DNA from: Streptomyces sp. GSL17-111
GTDB taxonomy: Bacteria > Actinomycetota > Actinomycetes > Streptomycetales > Streptomycetaceae
NCBI RefSeq assembly: GCF_037911585.1
Contig: NZ_JBAJNS010000001.1
Location: forward strand, 3,094,001-3,158,000
Length of the DNA stretch: 64,000 nucleotides
Reading direction: 5' to 3'
In this document: one piece after another, positions 51,884 through 60,344 of the stretch
How positions within the stretch are numbered: the first letter of the stretch is position 1
How the letters are laid out: each line of letters begins with the position of its first letter
Position numbers and translations under genes: made by a program
The notes under the pieces: model-generated
Databases searched by the model: none
What the model was told of the DNA's origin: nothing
The model's input: only the letters and a program-made list of their open reading frames with translations

Positions 51884-53968
51884 ATGTCTGTTTCCACGCC
51901 CGAAACCGTCTCCGTTCTCACGGACGACGTCGAGCGTTCCCCCGAGACCGTGGCGGACGTCGCGGTCGACACCCCCGTCGACGCGCAGGCCGACGCCCCC
52001 GTCGACGCCCTGGCCGTCGACGCCGAGGCCGCGGACGCCGTCGCGGACGAGCCCACGACGACCTTCGGCGCCCTCGGTCTCCCCGACAACGTCGTGCGCA
52101 AGCTCGCGCAGAACGGCGTCACCAGCCCCTTCCCCATCCAGGCCGCGACCATCCCGGACGCCCTGGCCGGCAAGGACATCCTCGGCCGTGGCCGCACCGG
52201 CTCCGGCAAGACGCTGAGCTTCGGCCTCCCGACGCTCGCCCGGCTCGCCGGGGGCCGCACCGCCCGGCACCGCCCGCGCGCCGTCATCATGACGCCGACG
52301 CGTGAGCTCGCCATGCAGGTCTCCGACGCCCTCCAGCCCTACGGCGACGTGCTCGGCCTCAAGCTGAAGGTCGTCTGCGGCGGCACCTCCATGGGCAACC
52401 AGATCGGCGCGCTGGAGCGCGGCGTCGACGTCCTCGTCGCCACCCCCGGCCGACTGCGCGACCTGATCAACCGGGGCGCCTGCTCGCTCGACGACGTCGA
52501 GGTCGCCGTCCTCGACGAGGCCGACCAGATGGCCGACCTCGGCTTCCTGCCCGAGGTCACCGAGATCCTCGACCTCGTTCCCGAGGGCGGTCAGCGCATG
52601 CTGTTCTCCGCCACGCTGGAGCGCGAGATCGACACCCTCGTCAAGCGCTACCTCGTCGACCCCGTCAGCCACGAGGTCGACGCGGCCCAGGGCGCGGTCA
52701 CGACGATGACGCACCACATCCTCATCGTGAAGCCGCAGGACAAGGCACCCGTCACCGCCGCCATCGCCGCCCGCAAGGGCCGCACGATCGCGTTCGTCCG
52801 CACCCAGATGGGGGCCGACCGCGTCGCCGAGCAGCTCCGCGAGTCCGGCGTGCGCGCCGACGCCCTGCACGGCGGCATGACCCAGGGCGCCCGCACCCGC
52901 ACGCTGGCCGACTTCAAGGACGGGCACGTCAACGTCCTCGTCGCCACCGACGTCGCCGCGCGCGGCATCCACGTCGACGGCATCGACCTCGTCCTCAACG
53001 TCGACCCGGCCGGGGACCACAAGGACTACCTGCACCGCTCGGGCCGCACCGCCCGCGCCGGTCAGTCCGGCACCGTCGTCTCCCTGGCCCTGCCGCACCA
53101 GCGGCGGCAGACGTTCCGCCTGATGGAGGACGCCGGCGTCGACGCCTCCCGGCACCTCATCGGCCGCGGTGACGTCTTCGACGACGACGTGGCAGCCATC
53201 ACCGGGGCCCGCTCCCTCAGCGAGGTCCAGGCCGAGGCCGCCGCGAACTCCGCCCGCCAGGCCGACCGCGACGTCGCCAACCTCTCCCGCAAGCTCGACG
53301 AGGCCAAGCGGCGCGCCCAGGAACTGCGCGACGAGGCCGGCCGCCTGACCGCCCGTGCCGCCCGCGACCGGGGCGCCGACGCCGACGAGGCCGTCGCCCG
53401 GCTCACCGAGGAGATGGACCGCGCGGCCGTCGAGGAGGCCGAGCGCGCCGTCAAGGCCGCAGCGGCCCGTGCCGCCGAGCAGGAGCGCAAGGCGGCCCAG
53501 CAGCGCGAGGACCGCAAGCGCGAGGGCGGCAACTACCCGCGCCGCGACGACCGCGGCGGCCACCGGGGTGGCGGCTTCAACCGCGACCGCCGCGACGACC
53601 GGGGCGGCTTCAACCGCGACCGGGACCGCCGCGACGACCGCCGCTCCGACGACCGCGGCGGCTTCCGCCGGGACGACCGTCCGTTCAACCGCGACCGTCG
53701 CTCCGACGACCGACGTTCCGACGACCGACGTTCCGACGACCGCGGCGGCCACCGCGGCGGCGGCTTCAACCGCGACCGCCGCTCGGACGACCGCGGCGGC
53801 TACCGCCGCGACGACCGTCGCTACGACGACCGTCCGTTCAACCGCGACCGTCGCTCCGACGACCGCCGCCCCTACGGCCGTCGCGACGACCACCGCGCCG
53901 CCCCCAGCACCGGCAGCCGCTCCTTCGGCCGCCGCACCGACAAGCCCCGCTGGAAGCAGAACGGCTGA
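51884..53968 (+). CDS. DEAD-box RNA helicase with basic/acidic repeat tail
   Basis: 694 residues. An acidic N-terminus is followed by the core: Q-motif, GRTGSGKT, PTRELAMQ, DEAD in LDEADQMADLGF, SAT, and HRSGRTARAG. The tail from about residue 470 has a coiled-coil-like Ala/Glu/Arg stretch and then repeated RRDDRGG, GFNRDRR and RRSDDR units. It resembles cold-induced CsdA/DeaD-like helicases that unwind structured mRNA and rRNA. I prefer the ATG at 51884; a GTG at 51845 is in frame. Confidence 0.9.
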   Translation: MSVSTPETVSVLTDDVERSPETVADVAVDTPVDAQADAPVDALAVDAEAADAVADEPTTTFGALGLPDNVVRKLAQNGVTSPFPIQAATIPDALAGKDILGRGRTGSGKTLSFGLPTLARLAGGRTARHRPRAVIMTPTRELAMQVSDALQPYGDVLGLKLKVVCGGTSMGNQIGALERGVDVLVATPGRLRDLINRGACSLDDVEVAVLDEADQMADLGFLPEVTEILDLVPEGGQRMLFSATLEREIDTLVKRYLVDPVSHEVDAAQGAVTTMTHHILIVKPQDKAPVTAAIAARKGRTIAFVRTQMGADRVAEQLRESGVRADALHGGMTQGARTRTLADFKDGHVNVLVATDVAARGIHVDGIDLVLNVDPAGDHKDYLHRSGRTARAGQSGTVVSLALPHQRRQTFRLMEDAGVDASRHLIGRGDVFDDDVAAITGARSLSEVQAEAAANSARQADRDVANLSRKLDEAKRRAQELRDEAGRLTARAARDRGADADEAVARLTEEMDRAAVEEAERAVKAAAARAAEQERKAAQQREDRKREGGNYPRRDDRGGHRGGGFNRDRRDDRGGFNRDRDRRDDRRSDDRGGFRRDDRPFNRDRRSDDRRSDDRRSDDRGGHRGGGFNRDRRSDDRGGYRRDDRRYDDRPFNRDRRSDDRRPYGRRDDHRAAPSTGSRSFGRRTDKPRWKQNG

Positions 53969-53975
53969 CGCGTCG

Positions 53976-54008
53976 GGGGCCCGGGCGACACCCACGCGCC
54001 CGGGCCCC
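53976..54008 (+). terminator. terminator after the DEAD-box helicase gene
   Basis: A 12-bp stem (53976-53987 with 53997-54008) and 9-base loop begin 8 bases after the stop codon. Confidence 0.8.
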
Positions 54009-54063
54009 GATACCCACTCGGCCCTCCGGCCCCCGCCCGGCTATGCTCGACCCAGCACACCCC

Positions 54064-54136
54064 GGGCCGTTAGCTCAATTGGCAGAGCAGTGGACTTTTA
54101 ATCCATTGGTTGTGGGTTCGAGTCCCACACGGCCTA
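54064..54136 (+). tRNA. tRNA-Lys(UUU)
   Basis: A 73-base cloverleaf: acceptor GGGCCGT/ACGGCCT with a terminal G-T pair, D loop with GG, anticodon loop CTTTTAA (UUU), T loop TTCGAGT. Its 3' end borders the accessory island that follows. Confidence 0.95.
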
Positions 54137-54656
54137 CTCGAAGCAGGGAGGGGAACCTCGTCTGACCTGCACCGGAGCGCCTCAGACAGTTTCTTCTGGT
54201 TGAGGCGCTCCGTCGTCATCGGCCGCTTTGCGTGAGCGCGAGTGTCACCAGGTTCTCTGAAGACCGCTATGGAGGGGTTGGCTCGCTTCTAATAGAGTTC
54301 AGCTGGACAGGACCCTCTCCGCGCTCTGGCCCGAGGCCAGACACCGAGGCATCACGTGTGGCGGTGCGGCGGACCCTTCGTGATCTTCTATCTCACTTGC
54401 GGCCTGGGGTCCCTCGTTCAAGCAGTCTCTGTTCTCTTCGCTCGTCTCCGGCCCGGGGCGCCAGAGCGCGTCACCAACGTTCTTCAGCATGGGTCCGATG
54501 ACGTGCATGCACCGGGCTCGTATCCGTGCTGAACCGTCAGGCTCCCATCCCGTGATGGCGTCGACGACGACATCCAGAGCCTAAGCAACAGCAGCATGGT
54601 CCCGGCGGTGGACCGCGCATCGGGCCGTCGTCCATCGGGCACTCGCGACTCCCTCG
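54137..54656. other. non-coding edge of the accessory island
   Basis: 520 bases between tRNA-Lys and the helicase stop. An 11-bp stem with a 16-base loop (54174-54184 with 54201-54211) probably ends the tRNA transcript. The rest is lower in GC than the flanking core. I see no integrase fragment and no second copy of the tRNA 3' end here. Small frames on both strands are not convincing. Confidence 0.5.
54174..54211 (+). terminator. probable terminator of tRNA-Lys
   Basis: Perfect 11-base arms (GGAGCGCCTCA and its complement) around a 16-base loop rich in T, starting 37 bases after the tRNA. Confidence 0.65.
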
Positions 54657-56129
54657 TCACATGGCGAGTGATCGGCAGCGAGCGCGGGTGAGTGCCACGT
54701 AGAGCTTGCGGTGGTCTTCGTTGTCCCGGTCCAGGCCGCAGCGTAGGGCTCGTGTATCGCTGTCCTCGAGTCGCACAGCGACGGTGTCCCACTCACGTCC
54801 CTTGGCCTGATGCGTGGTCAGACCGAGAACGAGGTCGTCTAAGGGGCGGAGGAGGCGGGTGCGCAACTGTTGGAGGCGATTGATGTGGTCGCGGTGCCTC
54901 CGGGGGATTTTGGCGGACGACTCAGTTGCGATTTGTGCCGTGAGGTACGCGAGCGTGGCAGGCAGGTCGTCGCTGTCGGTGAGCCGCGCGAGAACTGCGT
55001 CTAGGCGGGGTTCTAGTCGGGCGCGAGCTTCAAAGCCTAGGCGTAGCGTGGCGGCCGCGTCGGCCGCGTAGGTGGCGTGCTCGCCGAAGGCGCTGCGAGT
55101 GAGCCGGTCGAGCAACAGGGTGGAGGCGGCCTCCTGGGTGTTGCCGCTGGCGGATCGGAAGGCGAGGGGTAGTACGCGGGGGTGCGTATCCCACAGGGGC
55201 TTCCATTCGCGGGCTAGGACAACATCGACACCGTCCATCGCGGCGCCGGGCACCGTGATGGGTTCGCTTCGGCGCAGGGCCGTGGCGAGGTGTTCTTGGT
55301 CGGGCGTGCGCCAGCGGAAGGACGTGGTCAGCTGGAGGGTGGCCATCTCGGCGCGCTCCACGAGGGTGGGTACGAGGTCGGGGCGGGCGCCTCGGAAGCC
55401 GTACAGGGCTTGCCAGGGATCGCCGACGACGGTGATGTGCAGCCCAGCTTGTGCTGCGAGTTTGACTACGGCCAGGTCGAGGCTGTTGGCGTCGAAGATC
55501 TCGTCGACGATCAGGGCTCGCGTGGTGGTGGCGAGGTAGTCGATGAGGCAGCTCGTGATGTCCGTTTCGTCCAGGGCCTGTTCGAGGATCGCGCGGACGT
55601 TGTCGTGGGTGCATTGGCCGTCGTGCACGGCGGCGTCAAAGTCAGGCTGGACTGGGTGGTTGTCCTTGGTATGGCCGTAGGTATGGGCAGTGACGATCTG
55701 GCGACCTTCGAGTGTGAGGACCGGCTCCCGGGCCGTATAGCGGGTCGGGTAGTGGGCCTTCCAGGTATCCAGGACCTCAAGGTCGGTGTGGCCGCCGGGC
55801 CAGTGGAGCTTGTTGTTGTGCAGGAGATGGGCGAGCAGGTCGTAGACGACGGTGTCCAGGGTGACGATGCGGTGCGGTGGATTGATCGCGGCGCGGCCCC
55901 AGGTGGCACGGACGCGTGCGCGCAGTTCCGCGGTGGCGGAGCGAGTGAAGCTGACTGCGACCACCGCGCGCGGGTCGCTTGCCAGGGCGAAGCGCTGCAC
56001 GCCGAAGCGGTGTGCGGACACTGTGGTTTTTCCGGAGCCGGGGGCGGCTTCAATGTAAAGGCGTGGGAGGGGTGTGCCAGCGGCGATGAGCTGTTCGGGG
56101 GTCAGCCGCTCCAGAGCAGCCTCAGCCAC
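54657..56129 (-). CDS. gajB: UvrD-type helicase, Gabija GajB-like
   Basis: 490 residues, close to the known GajB length of about 490. Superfamily 1 motifs run in order: Walker A APGSGKTT (29-36), [14 protein letters not shown] (Ia), VDE at 208-210 (II), [12 protein letters not shown] (236-247, III), TSFRW (IV), [10 protein letters not shown] (439-448, V) and YVALTRAR (VI). In Gabija the helicase is activated by DNA ends produced by GajA and contributes to nucleotide depletion. The GTG at 56129 lies inside the end of the nuclease gene (8-base overlap). Leu430 is encoded by TTA, the rare bldA-read codon. Base composition is below that of neighbours. Confidence 0.82.
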
Positions 56130-58146
56130 GGTGCTCGCCCCAGCTGGTGACGTCGAGTTCCGGACCGAACCGGGGGTTAGCAGTAGGAGGCAGAACGTCG
56201 CCCGACTCGTCGGACTTACCTGGTACGTCGCTGTCGTCCCCACTCGGCTGGGGACGGTCGTCCGGCTTGGTGGTGGCAGGTGGCACCGGGTACAAGAAGT
56301 CGAACATTGCCTGCAGATGGTCTGGGACGACCGGGTTGATCATTGCTTCGTTGGCGTCGGCGAGTTGTTGGGCGAGTGCGAGCGCGAACTCCGCCTTGCG
56401 CTTGGCCCCCGCGCCAGCGGGTGTGGCGCCCTTTCCGTCCGTGGCCTTGCGAGCGCTGCGAAACAGGGCATGGACTGACTCGGGATCCAGTGGCTCCGGT
56501 ACGGGCAGGGACAAGTCGGCCAAGGCATCGGCGATCAGCTTTTCGTTGCCTGCGGTGATGGCTGGCTCAAGCGTGGGGTGACTGATAAACGCCTGGGCTA
56601 CATCGGGGTCATGAGCGGTGATCCAAGTCGGGTCAGCGGGGACTGCGTCGAAGGCCAGGTCGCTGTCGCGCAGGACGGCGATCTTGGTGCACAACTCCGC
56701 GCCCTTAGTCGCGAGCAACCGCACTGCCCACGCTCCGACTTTGGTGCCCATGGGCACGACGCTCAGGGCTTCGACGAACGCTTGCTTGTCTGCGTCCTGA
56801 GCGGCCCAGGCACGGGCGAACTCGCGCACTACGGCCACCTCGGTGACACCCTCGACCAGGACCAGACGTTCAGCGAACAATGCGGCGGAGCGGCTGGTGT
56901 CTAGATGGAGCCGCGTCATGCGCAGCGTCTTGTCGCGCTCGACCATCGGCAAGGCGGCGATGGGGCGGCACACCCGGCGTCCGTCGCTAGTCCGGCGCAA
57001 CACGACGATATGCTCTGGGCGGCAGGACGCTATGACGTCGGTGGCGTGGCTGGACAGGACGATCTGCAGTTCTGGTCGCCGAGCGGTGACGCCCCGCAAG
57101 TAGCGGACTAGTGCATGCTGAAGCTGCGGGTGCAGGTGAGCCTCGGGCTCCTCAATGACCACGGTGGCATGGAAAGGATCTGGCGGGAAGAAGGAGTCTT
57201 CTGCGGACTCGGCCTCGGCCTGCGCCTGCACGAGCTGCTCGTGAGCCTGACGCGCAGCCTCCTCCACGTCACCAGGCCCGGGCGCAATCCCCATACCCGG
57301 GCCGTCGGGCATGCCTGTGGCGCGCTTGGCGGGGTCGGGGATTGCGGCCAGCGTGACGGCGACGTGGAGGAGGTTAACGTAGCCCAGGCCGGATACCTCC
57401 AATGGGCGTGCCTGAGCCCGGCCCTCGATCACCGCGAGCATCAGCTCCAGAACGCGCGCTAGGTAGTTGTCGTTGATGACCTGCCCGCGAACATAGGACC
57501 ACTGCCGACCCACGCCCGCCGTCATCGCCGAGAGGTGTGCGCCGATACGCTCCTCAACGGCTTCGATGATGCCGTCCTTGGCCAGCCCTTCTAGGAGTTG
57601 CGACGCCCGCGCCCGCAGCGATACCAAACTGCGCTGCCCGTTCAGGCGCTCCTGCTGAGCACGCAGCAATTCGATCAAGATGCGGACCTCACGTCTGGCG
57701 AGCTCATCCAGCGGGTGACGCCACGCGGGCAGGTAAAGGATCTTGAAGGGGTCGAGCGTGTCCAGTGGTCCCTGGCGCTGACCTGCCTGCGCCTGGATGC
57801 TGCCCAGACTTCGGGTCAAATTCGTACTCCAGCGCTGCACGACAGTGCCGGGCGAACCGTGGTGGATGGCGTGGAGCTGGCGTCCCAGGGCCCCTTCGGC
57901 GTCAGGGTCACAGTCCAGGGAGTACTGGACCGTGATGCTGCGTTCACCGCCGCCCAGCGCAGTAGCACTAGGGCGCGGCAGGCTGGGGAAACGGCTGGGA
58001 TGAGCCAAGTACAGGGCATCAGTGACGGTAGTCTTCCCGACACCGTTCGCGCCGATCAAAACACTGAACCGGCCGGGAAGATCGCAGACGATCTCCGACT
58101 CGGCGCTCGCGCGCAGACCTTTGACTTCCATCCGGCTCAGATGCAC
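56122..58146 (-). CDS. gajA: OLD-family ATPase/TOPRIM nuclease, Gabija GajA-like
   Basis: 674 residues. An ABC-type ATPase forms the N-terminal half: Walker [10 protein letters not shown] (32-40), a signature-like [10 protein letters not shown] near 251, Walker [14 protein letters not shown] (329-341) and the H-loop SSHATD (366-370). A TOPRIM domain follows, with LVEGVTE (430-436) and DSD (494-496) as metal ligands. This is the GajA plan, a sequence-specific nicking endonuclease released when phage replication depletes NTPs. It is about 95 residues longer than the B. cereus form, mostly in a charged, Pro-rich C-terminus. I chose the GTG at 58146; ATGs at 58188 and 58131 are in frame. Confidence 0.82.
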
Positions 58147-58187
58147 GCGCGTCGCCCCCCCACTTTGCAATCCCACCCGACTGTCCA

Positions 58188-58218
58188 ATTATCGCCCTGC
58201 ACGCTGAGCCTGTTCCAA
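58188..58218 (-). promoter_or_regulatory. candidate promoter of the gajA-gajB operon
   Basis: On the minus strand TTGGAA (58213-58218) and GATAAT (58188-58193) are spaced by 19 bases. Transcription would start near 58181, about 35 bases before the GTG. The region is A/T-rich compared with the core genome. Confidence 0.45.
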
Positions 58219-58257
58219 CCTGATTGTGGTACCTGCCCGTTGGCCTGACACTACAGC

Positions 58258-58300
58258 GGTCGGGTGGCCCGGAGATGAGCCCCCTCCGGGCCACCCGACC
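58258..58300. terminator. strong hairpin between IS remnant and gajA promoter
   Basis: A perfect 17-bp stem (58258-58274 with 58284-58300) with a 9-base loop. It would stop transcription from the transposase gene before the gajA promoter, or mark the old edge of the island. Confidence 0.75.
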
Positions 58301-58310
58301 ATCCATCCCT

Positions 58311-59168
58311 TAGAGCTTGTCTCATTTGGCGAGTCTGCGGTAGCAGATGAGCGTGCAGACGATGCTGGTGAAGGCGAGGAAGTGGTCGGCCTTGTGTTCG
58401 TATCGGCGGTGTAGTCGGCGGCAGTCGGCGAGCCAGGCAATGGTGCGTTCGATGGTCCAGCGGTGCTGGCCCAGGCGATGTGAGGCATCGACACCCTTGC
58501 GGGCGATGCGGTGTCGGATGCCACGCCGGGACAGCCATTTCCGCAGGTTGCGGTAGTCGTAGCCCTTGTCAGCGTGAAGCTTGCCGGGCTTGCGTCGACG
58601 GCGGCCTCAGCGAGACCGGATGGGCGGTATCCCCCTCACGAGGGGGATCAGAGCCTGGCTGTCGGGGACGTTGGCGCCGGAGATCCCGACGGAGATGGGC
58701 AGACCCGTCCGCTCGGTGATCAGGTGGATCTTCGACCCGTACTTGCCCCGGTCGAAAGGATTCGGACCTGTCAGGTCCCCCTTTTCAGGGCCCGCATGTT
58801 CACCGAGTCGATCGCGCACCTCGACCAGTCCAGCTCACCCCGGGAGCCGAGTTCATCCAGGACCAGGCGGTGCAGCTTGGCCCACACCCGGGCCTTCGTC
58901 CACTCGGCGAACCGGCGGTGGGCCGTGGCCCCGGAAGGCCCGAACGACGCCGCGGGCAACTGCTGCCACGTGCACCCCGAGGTCGCCACGAACACGATCG
59001 CGGCCAGCACCTCCCGGTCACCGTGGCGGCGCCGACCACCACCCTGCGGCCGCGAAGGCGCCTCCGGCACCACCCGCTGGAACAACTCCCACAACTCATC
59101 CGGCACCAGCCGCTCAACGATCCCCACCACAACCCACAGCTTACCGAGCCAATTGAGATAATTTCCTA
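58311..59168 (-). mobile_element. IS5-family insertion sequence, decayed
   Basis: About 858 bp. The ends pair imperfectly: TAGAGCTTGTCTCATTTGGC at 58311-58330 against the complement of 59148-59167 (14 of 20 match), giving terminal inverted repeats. The interior encodes a two-frame transposase of the IS427-like subgroup. I could not see a clear target-site duplication. Confidence 0.75.
58322..59130 (-). pseudogene. IS5-family transposase, two frames plus a nonsense codon
   Basis: The first frame (59130 to 58771) gives the N-terminal part, LVPDELWELFQRVVPEA to IDSVNMRALKRG. The second frame, shifted by -1, is entered at an AAAAGGGGG run near 58777-58785, the usual programmed-frameshift site of this group, and gives DLTGPNPFDRGKYGSKIH with the catalytic second Asp region nearby. 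It then meets an in-frame TGA at 58607-58609 where an Arg codon is expected, and continues in frame (KLHADKGYDYRNLRKWL, RWTIERTIAWL) to a TGA at 58322-58324. The nonsense codon should inactivate it. Confidence 0.8.
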
Positions 59169-59267
59169 GCCCAACCATCATGCGCTCGGCAAGTCGGCAA
59201 ACACTCACTGGCGTCACGTGCTTAGCGGTCCGAGCCCGGGAATTTTCGCGTAGCGCATCATGGGGGT

Positions 59268-59774
59268 ATGCGGGTGCGGGGTGTGCGGCGGGGGGAGCTG
59301 GAGTTGCTGCGGGACATCGAGAGGGCCGCGGGGCGGTGCTTCCGGGACATCGGCATGGCCGAGATCGCCGACGACGAGCCGCTGGCCGTCGCGGAGTTGG
59401 ACCGCTACCGCCGGGCCGGGGCGGCCTGGGTCGCGGTCGACGGCACGGATCGGCCGGTCGCCTACGCGCTCGCGGACCGCGTTGACGGGAACCTCCACGT
59501 CGAGCAGGTGTCGGTCCACCCGGCCTGGGCGCGGCGCGGTGTCGGGCGGGGTCTGCTGGAGCATCTGGCCGGTGAGGCCCGGGCCGTCGGGGCGCCCGCG
59601 CTGACGCTGACCACGTTCGCGGAGGTGCCGTGGAACGCGCCCTACTACGAGCGGTGCGGGTTCGGGCGCCTGGACGACGGGGAGCTCTCCCCGGGGCTGC
59701 GGGAGATCCGGGCGCGGGAGGCGGCGCACGGACTGGACCGGTGGCCCCGCGTCTGTATGCGCCGGACGCTGTGA
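59268..59774 (+). CDS. GNAT N-acetyltransferase
   Basis: A 168-residue single-domain acetyltransferase. The acetyl-CoA loop reads VHPAWARRGVGRGLLEHL (Q/RxxGxG/A near residue 89), after strand EQVSVHP; YYERCGFGRL near residue 125 is the conserved C-terminal block. The amine substrate is unknown. The ATG at 59268 opens the core genome again after the island. Confidence 0.85.
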   Translation: MRVRGVRRGELELLRDIERAAGRCFRDIGMAEIADDEPLAVAELDRYRRAGAAWVAVDGTDRPVAYALADRVDGNLHVEQVSVHPAWARRGVGRGLLEHLAGEARAVGAPALTLTTFAEVPWNAPYYERCGFGRLDDGELSPGLREIRAREAAHGLDRWPRVCMRRTL

Positions 59775-59876
59775 CCCCCGGCGGGGCCGTGACGCCGGCG
59801 GTCGGCGGGCGAACCGGTGACCCCTGCGCCCGTGTCCGTGGTACCGGACGCGGCACGTCCCGAAGGAGGTTGAGCG

Positions 59877-60344
59877 GTGACCACTGAGCCCACGCCCACG
59901 CCCGCCGCCCCGACACCCCCCACGCCCGCGCCGGACGCCGCCGCGCACCTGCGGGCGTTGGACGACGTGCAGCAGCTCTTCGCCCGGGCCGACACCAAGG
60001 CGAGCCTGCTGCTGGCCCTCGACGGAGCGTTGCTCGCGGTCGTCGCGGGTGCCGCGAAGGAGGTGCCGGGGGACGTCGCGGTCCGGGTGACCGGTGGGTG
60101 CGCGGTGGCGGTGCTGGCCGTGGCCGCCGTCCTGCTGCTGCGGGCCGTCCGCCCCCGCAACACGGCGCAGCTCACCACGGACCACCTCCTCGCCACGGCG
60201 CACGACCCCGTGCGGCAGCTCGCCCGGCTGGACCGGCTGACTCGCACGGCGCGGCGCAAGTACGCGCTCATCGGGTGGGCCGTCGACTGCGTCCTCGTCG
60301 GCGGTGCGCTGCTCGCGCTGGCCACCGTGCTCGCCGTCCTGTAG
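59877..60344 (+). CDS. two-TM protein resembling Pycsar effector (PycTM)
   Basis: 155 residues. A Thr/Pro-rich leader is followed by a helix with LFARADTKASLLLALDGALLAVV, whose ADTKAS core and first membrane helix are typical of PycTM/DUF5706 proteins; a second helix (AVLAVAAVLLLRAV) follows, and a third hydrophobic segment closes the protein. Known relatives disrupt the membrane when cyclic UMP or CMP is made, but no pyrimidine cyclase gene is adjacent. The GTG at 59877 has AAGGAGG 7 bases ahead. Confidence 0.65.
   Translation: MTTEPTPTPAAPTPPTPAPDAAAHLRALDDVQQLFARADTKASLLLALDGALLAVVAGAAKEVPGDVAVRVTGGCAVAVLAVAAVLLLRAVRPRNTAQLTTDHLLATAHDPVRQLARLDRLTRTARRKYALIGWAVDCVLVGGALLALATVLAVL

Follow-up and report, generated by a model that had tools for sequence, protein, structure and literature searches.

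The two overlapping genes at 54657–58146 of the window (the whole 64,000-nucleotide stretch of DNA that was analysed) are probably a divergent member of the known Gabija kind. We assign a probability of roughly 0.8 to the full reading, i.e., a two-gene anti-phage system of the Gabija (class 2 OLD) type, whose role in defence we infer, belonging to a divergent and mainly actinobacterial branch and carried as a mobile cassette. A class 2 OLD nuclease with a UvrD-like helicase is the best-supported reading of the pair, and the Gabija-like identity given in the original prediction is supported by the gene order, the active-site residues, the domain architecture, the profile scores, and the defence-rich neighbourhoods of the orthologs. 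Gabija is among the commonest defence systems, found in 8.5–15% of genomes according to passages of two reports (PMC10781630, PMC10568477). Among the titles listed in literature searches, none is on a Streptomyces Gabija or describes this OLD/GajA branch. The mechanistic Gabija work that we looked at was carried out on B. cereus, P. aeruginosa, and OLD domains in isolation; the present pair is an outlier for testing which Gabija features are essential.

The gene pair and its active sites

The features of the locus are as follows.
54064–54137: tRNA-Lys beside the cassette
54657–56129, minus strand: UvrD-like SF1 helicase gene (GajB-like; gene 2), 490 aa, GTG start at 56129, stop at 54657
56122–56129, minus strand: 8-bp overlap of the nuclease and helicase frames
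56122–58146, minus strand: OLD-type ABC ATPase/Toprim nuclease gene (GajA-like; gene 1), 674 aa, GTG start
56125–56280, minus strand: C-terminal tail of the nuclease (residues 623–674), predicted disordered, unconserved
56284–56580, minus strand: C-terminal helical domain (residues 523–621) with T525, E527, and K584, compared with BpOLD from published passages
56581–56868, minus strand: Toprim core (residues 427–522) with E432, E436, G467, D494, and D496
58147–58207, minus strand: stretch upstream of the nuclease gene, part of the conserved cassette, likely a promoter and ribosome-binding site as judged by eye, without a listing in the consensus scan
58258–58300, strand not assigned: perfect inverted repeat of 17 bp, located between the remnant of the transposase and the cassette
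58310–59160: IS4/5-type transposase, decayed or frameshifted, immediately upstream of the cassette, with DUF4096 and DDE_Tnp_1 pieces

Both frames are intact, and the nuclease gene comes first, overlapping the helicase gene by 8 bases as had been predicted. Starting instead at the alternative TTG at 58188 would lengthen the nuclease by 14 aa. We prefer the GTG at 58146: it is preceded by a G-rich run, and the TTG is overlapped by a promoter-like TTGGAA/GATAAT pair, which was seen by eye alone and is absent from the output of the consensus promoter scan. The GC content of the window is mostly 0.70–0.79 and drops to 0.66 at 54–58 kb, where the gene pair sits. The host genome (6.03 Mb, 99.96% complete) carries one full-length copy of the system, with weak partial matches at two other places.

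The nuclease matches the Pfam families AAA_21, AAA_15, and OLD-like_TOPRIM, all above their cut-offs. The OLD-type ATPase with an intact TOPRIM metal site that had been read from the sequence was confirmed, with LVEGVTE at residues 430–436 and DSD at 494–496. Among 36 nuclease sequences (window included), E432, G467, D494, D496, T525, E527, and K584 are present without exception, position 436 is occupied by E or D, and 35 and 34 of the sequences have the Walker A Lys and the H-loop His, respectively. An AlphaFold2 model built from these 36 sequences (pLDDT 76.8, pTM 0.74) has five helices after the last Toprim strand. Residues 1–621 of the model align equally well with Thermus scotoductus OLD, TsOLD (6p74; Z 18.0, 4.4 Å over 367 residues), and with GajA (8x5i_D; Z 18.0, 4.6 Å over 404 residues), so that the fold leaves the class of the nuclease undecided. 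The retron Eco8 OLD is also listed by Foldseek, below TsOLD and GajA, and other families in the structural match list reach no further than about residue 431.

An Insert 3 helix between Toprim α3 and β4 occurs in BpOLD (Burkholderia pseudomallei) and XccOLD (Xanthomonas) and is described as variable in passages of PMC6755086. The spacing from DxD to T-x-E is 49 residues in BpOLD vs. 29 in the window nuclease, where the model has one 5-residue helix, suggesting that the Insert 3 helix is probably missing from the window nuclease.

The original prediction also pointed to a long, charged C-terminus, about 95 residues beyond the B. cereus form, that could set specificity or bind an accessory factor. 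B. cereus GajA has 578 aa, and the nuclease indeed exceeds it by 96 aa. However, residue 621 of the model aligns with GajA residue 575, and the tail beyond GajA is therefore only about 53 aa, the remaining length difference being internal. The pLDDT is below 50 from residue 623 on, the part after residue 618 ranges from 6 to 110 aa across the 36 sequences, and these sequences have no motif common to all tails. A PPWEEL-like stretch is shared by several other Streptomyces tails and is absent from the window nuclease. Given the variable length and the lack of a common motif among the 36 sequences, a function for the tail was rejected, which leaves the proposed specificity element or accessory binder without support.

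The partner was predicted to be a helicase of 490 residues with all SF1 motifs, and this holds: it carries all SF1A helicase motifs, most of whose residues are invariant in 34 aligned helicases (window included). The segments PGSGKT (30–35), VDE (208–210), a 13-residue stretch (236–248), HQAKGREWD (440–448), and YVALTRAR (477–484) are those we take to be the SF1 motifs. The protein is modelled as a compact SF1 helicase (pLDDT 92.8, pTM 0.87). It is nearer UvrD than GajB both by profile (94 bits vs. 62 bits) and by structure, with Z 21.8 and 7.3 Å over 427 residues for E. coli UvrD (3lfu) vs. Z 18.4 and 7.3 Å over 312 residues for GajB (8sm3_B).

Assignment among the OLD families

PADLOC matching of nucleases and helicases was performed at E 1e-5, and the scores compared here are bit scores rather than curated PADLOC cut-offs. 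At this threshold, GajA models match all 36 nucleases and GajB models all 34 helicases. The window nuclease matches GajA at E 3.3e-44, and its best GajA model gives 153 bits vs. 63 bits for Old, whereas three members of the modelled GajA families score 619–973 bits with their own model. The nuclease thus leans to GajA without a member-level score. For comparison, phage P2 Old reaches 712 bits with Old and 109 bits with its best GajA model, and a helicase-less actinobacterial OLD scores 174 bits with Old and 97 bits with GajA. A genome search with the GajA model PDLC00073 at E 1e-25, in which 8 of 25 candidates were scored, did not have the own genome among the matches listed. When a profile of the clade was searched against solved structures, TsOLD was the best match of the nuclease (79 bits), followed by PtuA (38 bits) and B. 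cereus GajA (28 bits). PARIS, Septu, and retron effectors were rejected as identities, since AriAB and PtuA reach 59 and 55 bits vs. 153 for GajA and form a different gene pair; with the NCBIfam PtuA model, the nuclease scores 47 against a cut-off of 500.

On the helicase side, the PADLOC models also return the predicted partner, with a GajB match at E 1.4e-38. However, one ORF of the control set beats the window helicase with a GajB model (E 1.2e-46), so that this match is not specific. The match was therefore rejected as proof of GajB, another UvrD-like helicase scoring better in the control, and the GajB model match alone is weak evidence. The better-scoring control ORF is probably the one at 2–1063 of locus L101, near AdnAB-like genes, which also matches the helicase profile.

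Two quick trees, whose sampling excluded TsOLD, BpOLD, XccOLD, and B. cereus GajA, place the orthologs in one clade (support 100) on a long stem. In the first, the nearest group (L112/L113/L116; support 92) consists of members or relatives of PDLC00073, and five rows with no helicase-profile match fall among the pair rows. In the second tree, which is smaller, four selected OLDs without a helicase, including P2 Old, separate from the rest with support 100, and the placement of the ortholog clade among class 2 OLDs/GajA has support 35. According to the original prediction, a nuclease placed outside the GajA clade would speak against Gabija, and these trees neither refute nor prove that identity: the separation from the helicase-less OLDs stands, whereas the nesting within GajA is left at that low value.

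Several features of class 2 are found here, i.e., a tandem, overlapping helicase of the SF1A type, a complete ABC and Toprim site, and a C-terminal helical domain with T-x-E and Lys. The pair does not conform to class 1, which is defined by a single gene, no helicase, and no C-terminal helical domain. One may instead consider a separate OLD/helicase defence system that has the Gabija-like gene order with its own assembly and activation, e.g., a TsOLD-like dimer with a UvrD-like partner. This would be in line with a best GajA score far below those of the modelled-family members, the long stem of the clade, the lead of TsOLD over GajA and of UvrD over GajB in the profile searches, and an Insert 3 helix that is probably missing judging from model and spacing. 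However, the helical domain with its conserved Lys is of the class 2 type, the GajA models score far above Old, and class 2 OLD is equated with GajA in a published definition that rests on the tandem helicase (passages of PMC10568477). We therefore regard a separate system as distinctly improbable and prefer the class 2, Gabija-like reading.

Orthologs, selection, and mobility

Relatives were collected by a scan of one genome per species, and the best 80 of 160 loci were kept. Among these, 44 loci (L017–L060) are orthologs at 38–89% identity, nearly all from Actinomycetota, with one each from Chloroflexota, Myxococcota, and a record labelled Rhodospirillales. In 40 of the 44, the OLD ORF is overlapped by a helicase ORF or followed by one within 65 bp of its end. 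These 40 include L046, whose helicase is split, L054, whose OLD gene is split, and L026, where the helicase is matched in two frames; of the remaining four, two carry the helicase in pieces (L050, L051), L053 has it at a distance of about 1.4 kb, and no helicase is seen at L055. The more distant L061–L096 have a helicase match in 29 of 36 loci. Interrupted, split, or fragmentary copies were observed at L046, L050, L051, L053, and L054 and in the genomes G094, G375, G114, and G360; several broken ortholog copies are as expected of a defence system that is often gained and lost.

Both genes are under purifying selection and co-varying. Over the 33 loci with both proteins aligned, their distance matrices are correlated (Mantel r 0.937; none of 5000 permutations reached this value), and dN/dS against the three nearest orthologs is 0.12–0.16 for the nuclease and 0.15–0.17 for the helicase (0.12 and 0.15, respectively, against the nearest). 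Together with the E values of the GajA and GajB matches, the ratios against the nearest ortholog show that the two frames are no chance finding. The broken transposase directly upstream could be taken as a sign of a decaying remnant whose function is lost. However, the frames are full-length with intact active-site residues, the upstream stretch is conserved, and the dN/dS values stay at 0.12–0.17, leaving decay with a negligible probability. No conserved third gene was found in the flanks of 31 loci, where the largest shared clusters comprise four loci, and the shared flanking ORFs of the window fall within the insertion sequence. A conserved accessory gene was rejected, several of the flank clusters being opposite-strand shadows of one ORF.

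Within 53900–59400, DNA homology to the ortholog locus L017 is limited to 54657–58207, ending on one side at the helicase stop codon and on the other roughly 60 bp upstream of the nuclease gene. L018 and L019 have nearly the same limits, and Cellulomonas L030 and Nocardioides L031 share only the gene pair. Homology confined to the pair and about 60 bp upstream suggests a mobile cassette. In the own genus, a match at E 1e-20 is found in 11 of 392 genomes (own included), and four of the other ten have split or stop-containing copies. Among plasmids, 2 of 72,556 records cover at least 80% of the query, at 58% and 64% identity, with no near DNA match. The scan of 50,697 phage records gave one partial match and none covering 80% of the query, and a viral-contig scan gave one partial relative. 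As a separate observation, about 17.8 kb including the pair is 99.98–99.99% identical in four Prauserella/Amycolatopsis records, and 11.1 kb of it in a fifth at a contig end (L039–L043; five species in all), which reflects either recent horizontal transfer or contamination.

Across 28 ortholog loci, ORFs in the flanks (95 of 133 picked) match 122 PADLOC families at E 1e-15. Among the 25 of these that are listed are Argonaute, Lamassu LmuA/LmuB, SAVED and TRIP13 of CBASS, pPIWI-RE, JetD, MADS, and restriction of types I, II, and IV; XhoI, Mrr, and N6_Mtase come in addition from Pfam. As a control, 71 ORFs (window, adnAB region, and GNAT loci) matched 28 families, the 25 listed being 22 GajB models, RTasHel, mad3, and BrxH, with one ORF each. 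The control is not genome-matched and ORFs are uncounted in either list, so that the comparison is a contrast and not a statistic. The window neighbours of the pair are the tRNA-Lys, a DEAD-box helicase gene (named from motifs), and the decayed transposase rather than other defence genes. The transposase remnant has related sequences in the vicinity of L026 and L028.

A pair that acts in DNA repair or in the maintenance of replication forks and has no part in defence would be in line with the UvrD-like helicase and with an ATPase fold that, by structural matches, is shared with SMC/Rad50 heads. Nevertheless, the patchy presence within the genus, the horizontal spread, the defence genes adjoining the orthologs, and the broken copies in several relatives all argue against such a role, which we consider very unlikely in comparison with the Gabija-type reading.

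An integration hotspot may exist at the tRNA-Lys beside the cassette. In several genomes of the genus (loci L156–L163), a second, partial copy of the tRNA-Lys 3′ half lies on the same strand, 3–21 kb away, and in a few genomes the cargo at this tRNA is mixed, including a desaturase, a transposase, and, at L157, a protein with a Tox-REase-2 domain. Site-specific integration at the tRNA-Lys was rejected for the present cassette, as the tRNA 3′ end occurs only once in the window and 53900–60000 has no long direct repeats. On the other side of the cassette, no tRNA lies near the GNAT gene in the loci of nine relatives (about 3.5 kb or less each), and thus no empty site is defined.

Host AdnAB, proposed mechanism, and comparison with known systems

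In the own genome, two ORFs of 1130 and 1114 aa lie next to each other on the same strand, separated by about 1 kb, and match chains B and A of AdnAB structures with 651 and 416 bits, respectively; the RecC family has no match in this genome. According to passages of a 2025 preprint (PMC12407980), Gabija is proposed to attack linear DNA that is not processed by RecBCD, with RecBCD as the self-protection factor; these passages dispute the abortive nucleotide-depletion model and only mention AdnAB as an analogue. A host with AdnAB-like genes therefore makes this locus suitable for testing the RecBCD self-protection idea.

By sequence and model, the pair comprises an ABC-ATPase fold, a Toprim domain with a complete metal site, a helical domain with a conserved Lys, and a compact SF1 helicase. 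Its assembly, trigger, target, and protection we infer from characterised Gabija, in which GajA and GajB form a 4:4 complex and are both needed for defence (passages of PMC10781630) and cleavage by GajA is inhibited by ATP (passages of PMC10568477). By analogy, the nuclease would oligomerise via its ATPase/dimerisation part and dock the helicase, which would engage the DNA ends or single-stranded regions that are typical of phage during infection. The engaged DNA would then be nicked or cut by the Toprim domain, with nucleotide in the ABC site keeping the nuclease in check. Self DNA would be protected by the host end-processing complex, i.e., AdnAB in place of RecBCD. It is conceivable, if on balance unlikely, that the pair represents a deep, mainly actinobacterial OLD–helicase branch that works without RecBCD and treats ends not processed by AdnAB as foreign, possibly without the B. 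cereus 4:4 assembly, given a Toprim domain that probably lacks Insert 3 and a UvrD-like partner.

We compare the pair with three known systems. First, class 1 OLD proteins (Thermus TsOLD, 6P74, and phage P2 Old; passages of PMC7049728) share with the window nuclease an ABC ATPase with an inserted dimerisation part and an OLD-type Toprim domain, whereas the helicase and the C-terminal helical domain are found only in the window pair; P2 Old also far exceeds the window nuclease with the Old model (712 vs. 63 bits). Second, BpOLD and XccOLD (passages of PMC6755086) share the Toprim and C-terminal helical domains, the ligands E, E/D, DxD, T-x-E, and Lys in the same order, and a tandem, often overlapping helicase. 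The correspondence of BpOLD E400, E404, D455, D457, T506, E508, and K562 to the window residues, with T506, E508, and K562 matching T525, E527, and K584, is by order and spacing only and not by superposition; the two differ in the DxD to T-x-E spacing and probably in Insert 3. Third, the Gabija of B. cereus VD045 (GajA/GajB, 8SM3; passages of PMC10781630) has the same gene order, an ABC ATPase with Toprim E/G/DxD, and an SF1 partner, and the window nuclease aligns structurally with GajA over its full length (1–621) at 16–18% identity over the structural alignment. It differs from this system in the disordered tail of about 53 aa, in a helicase nearer UvrD than GajB, and in a host with AdnAB-like genes instead of RecBCD.
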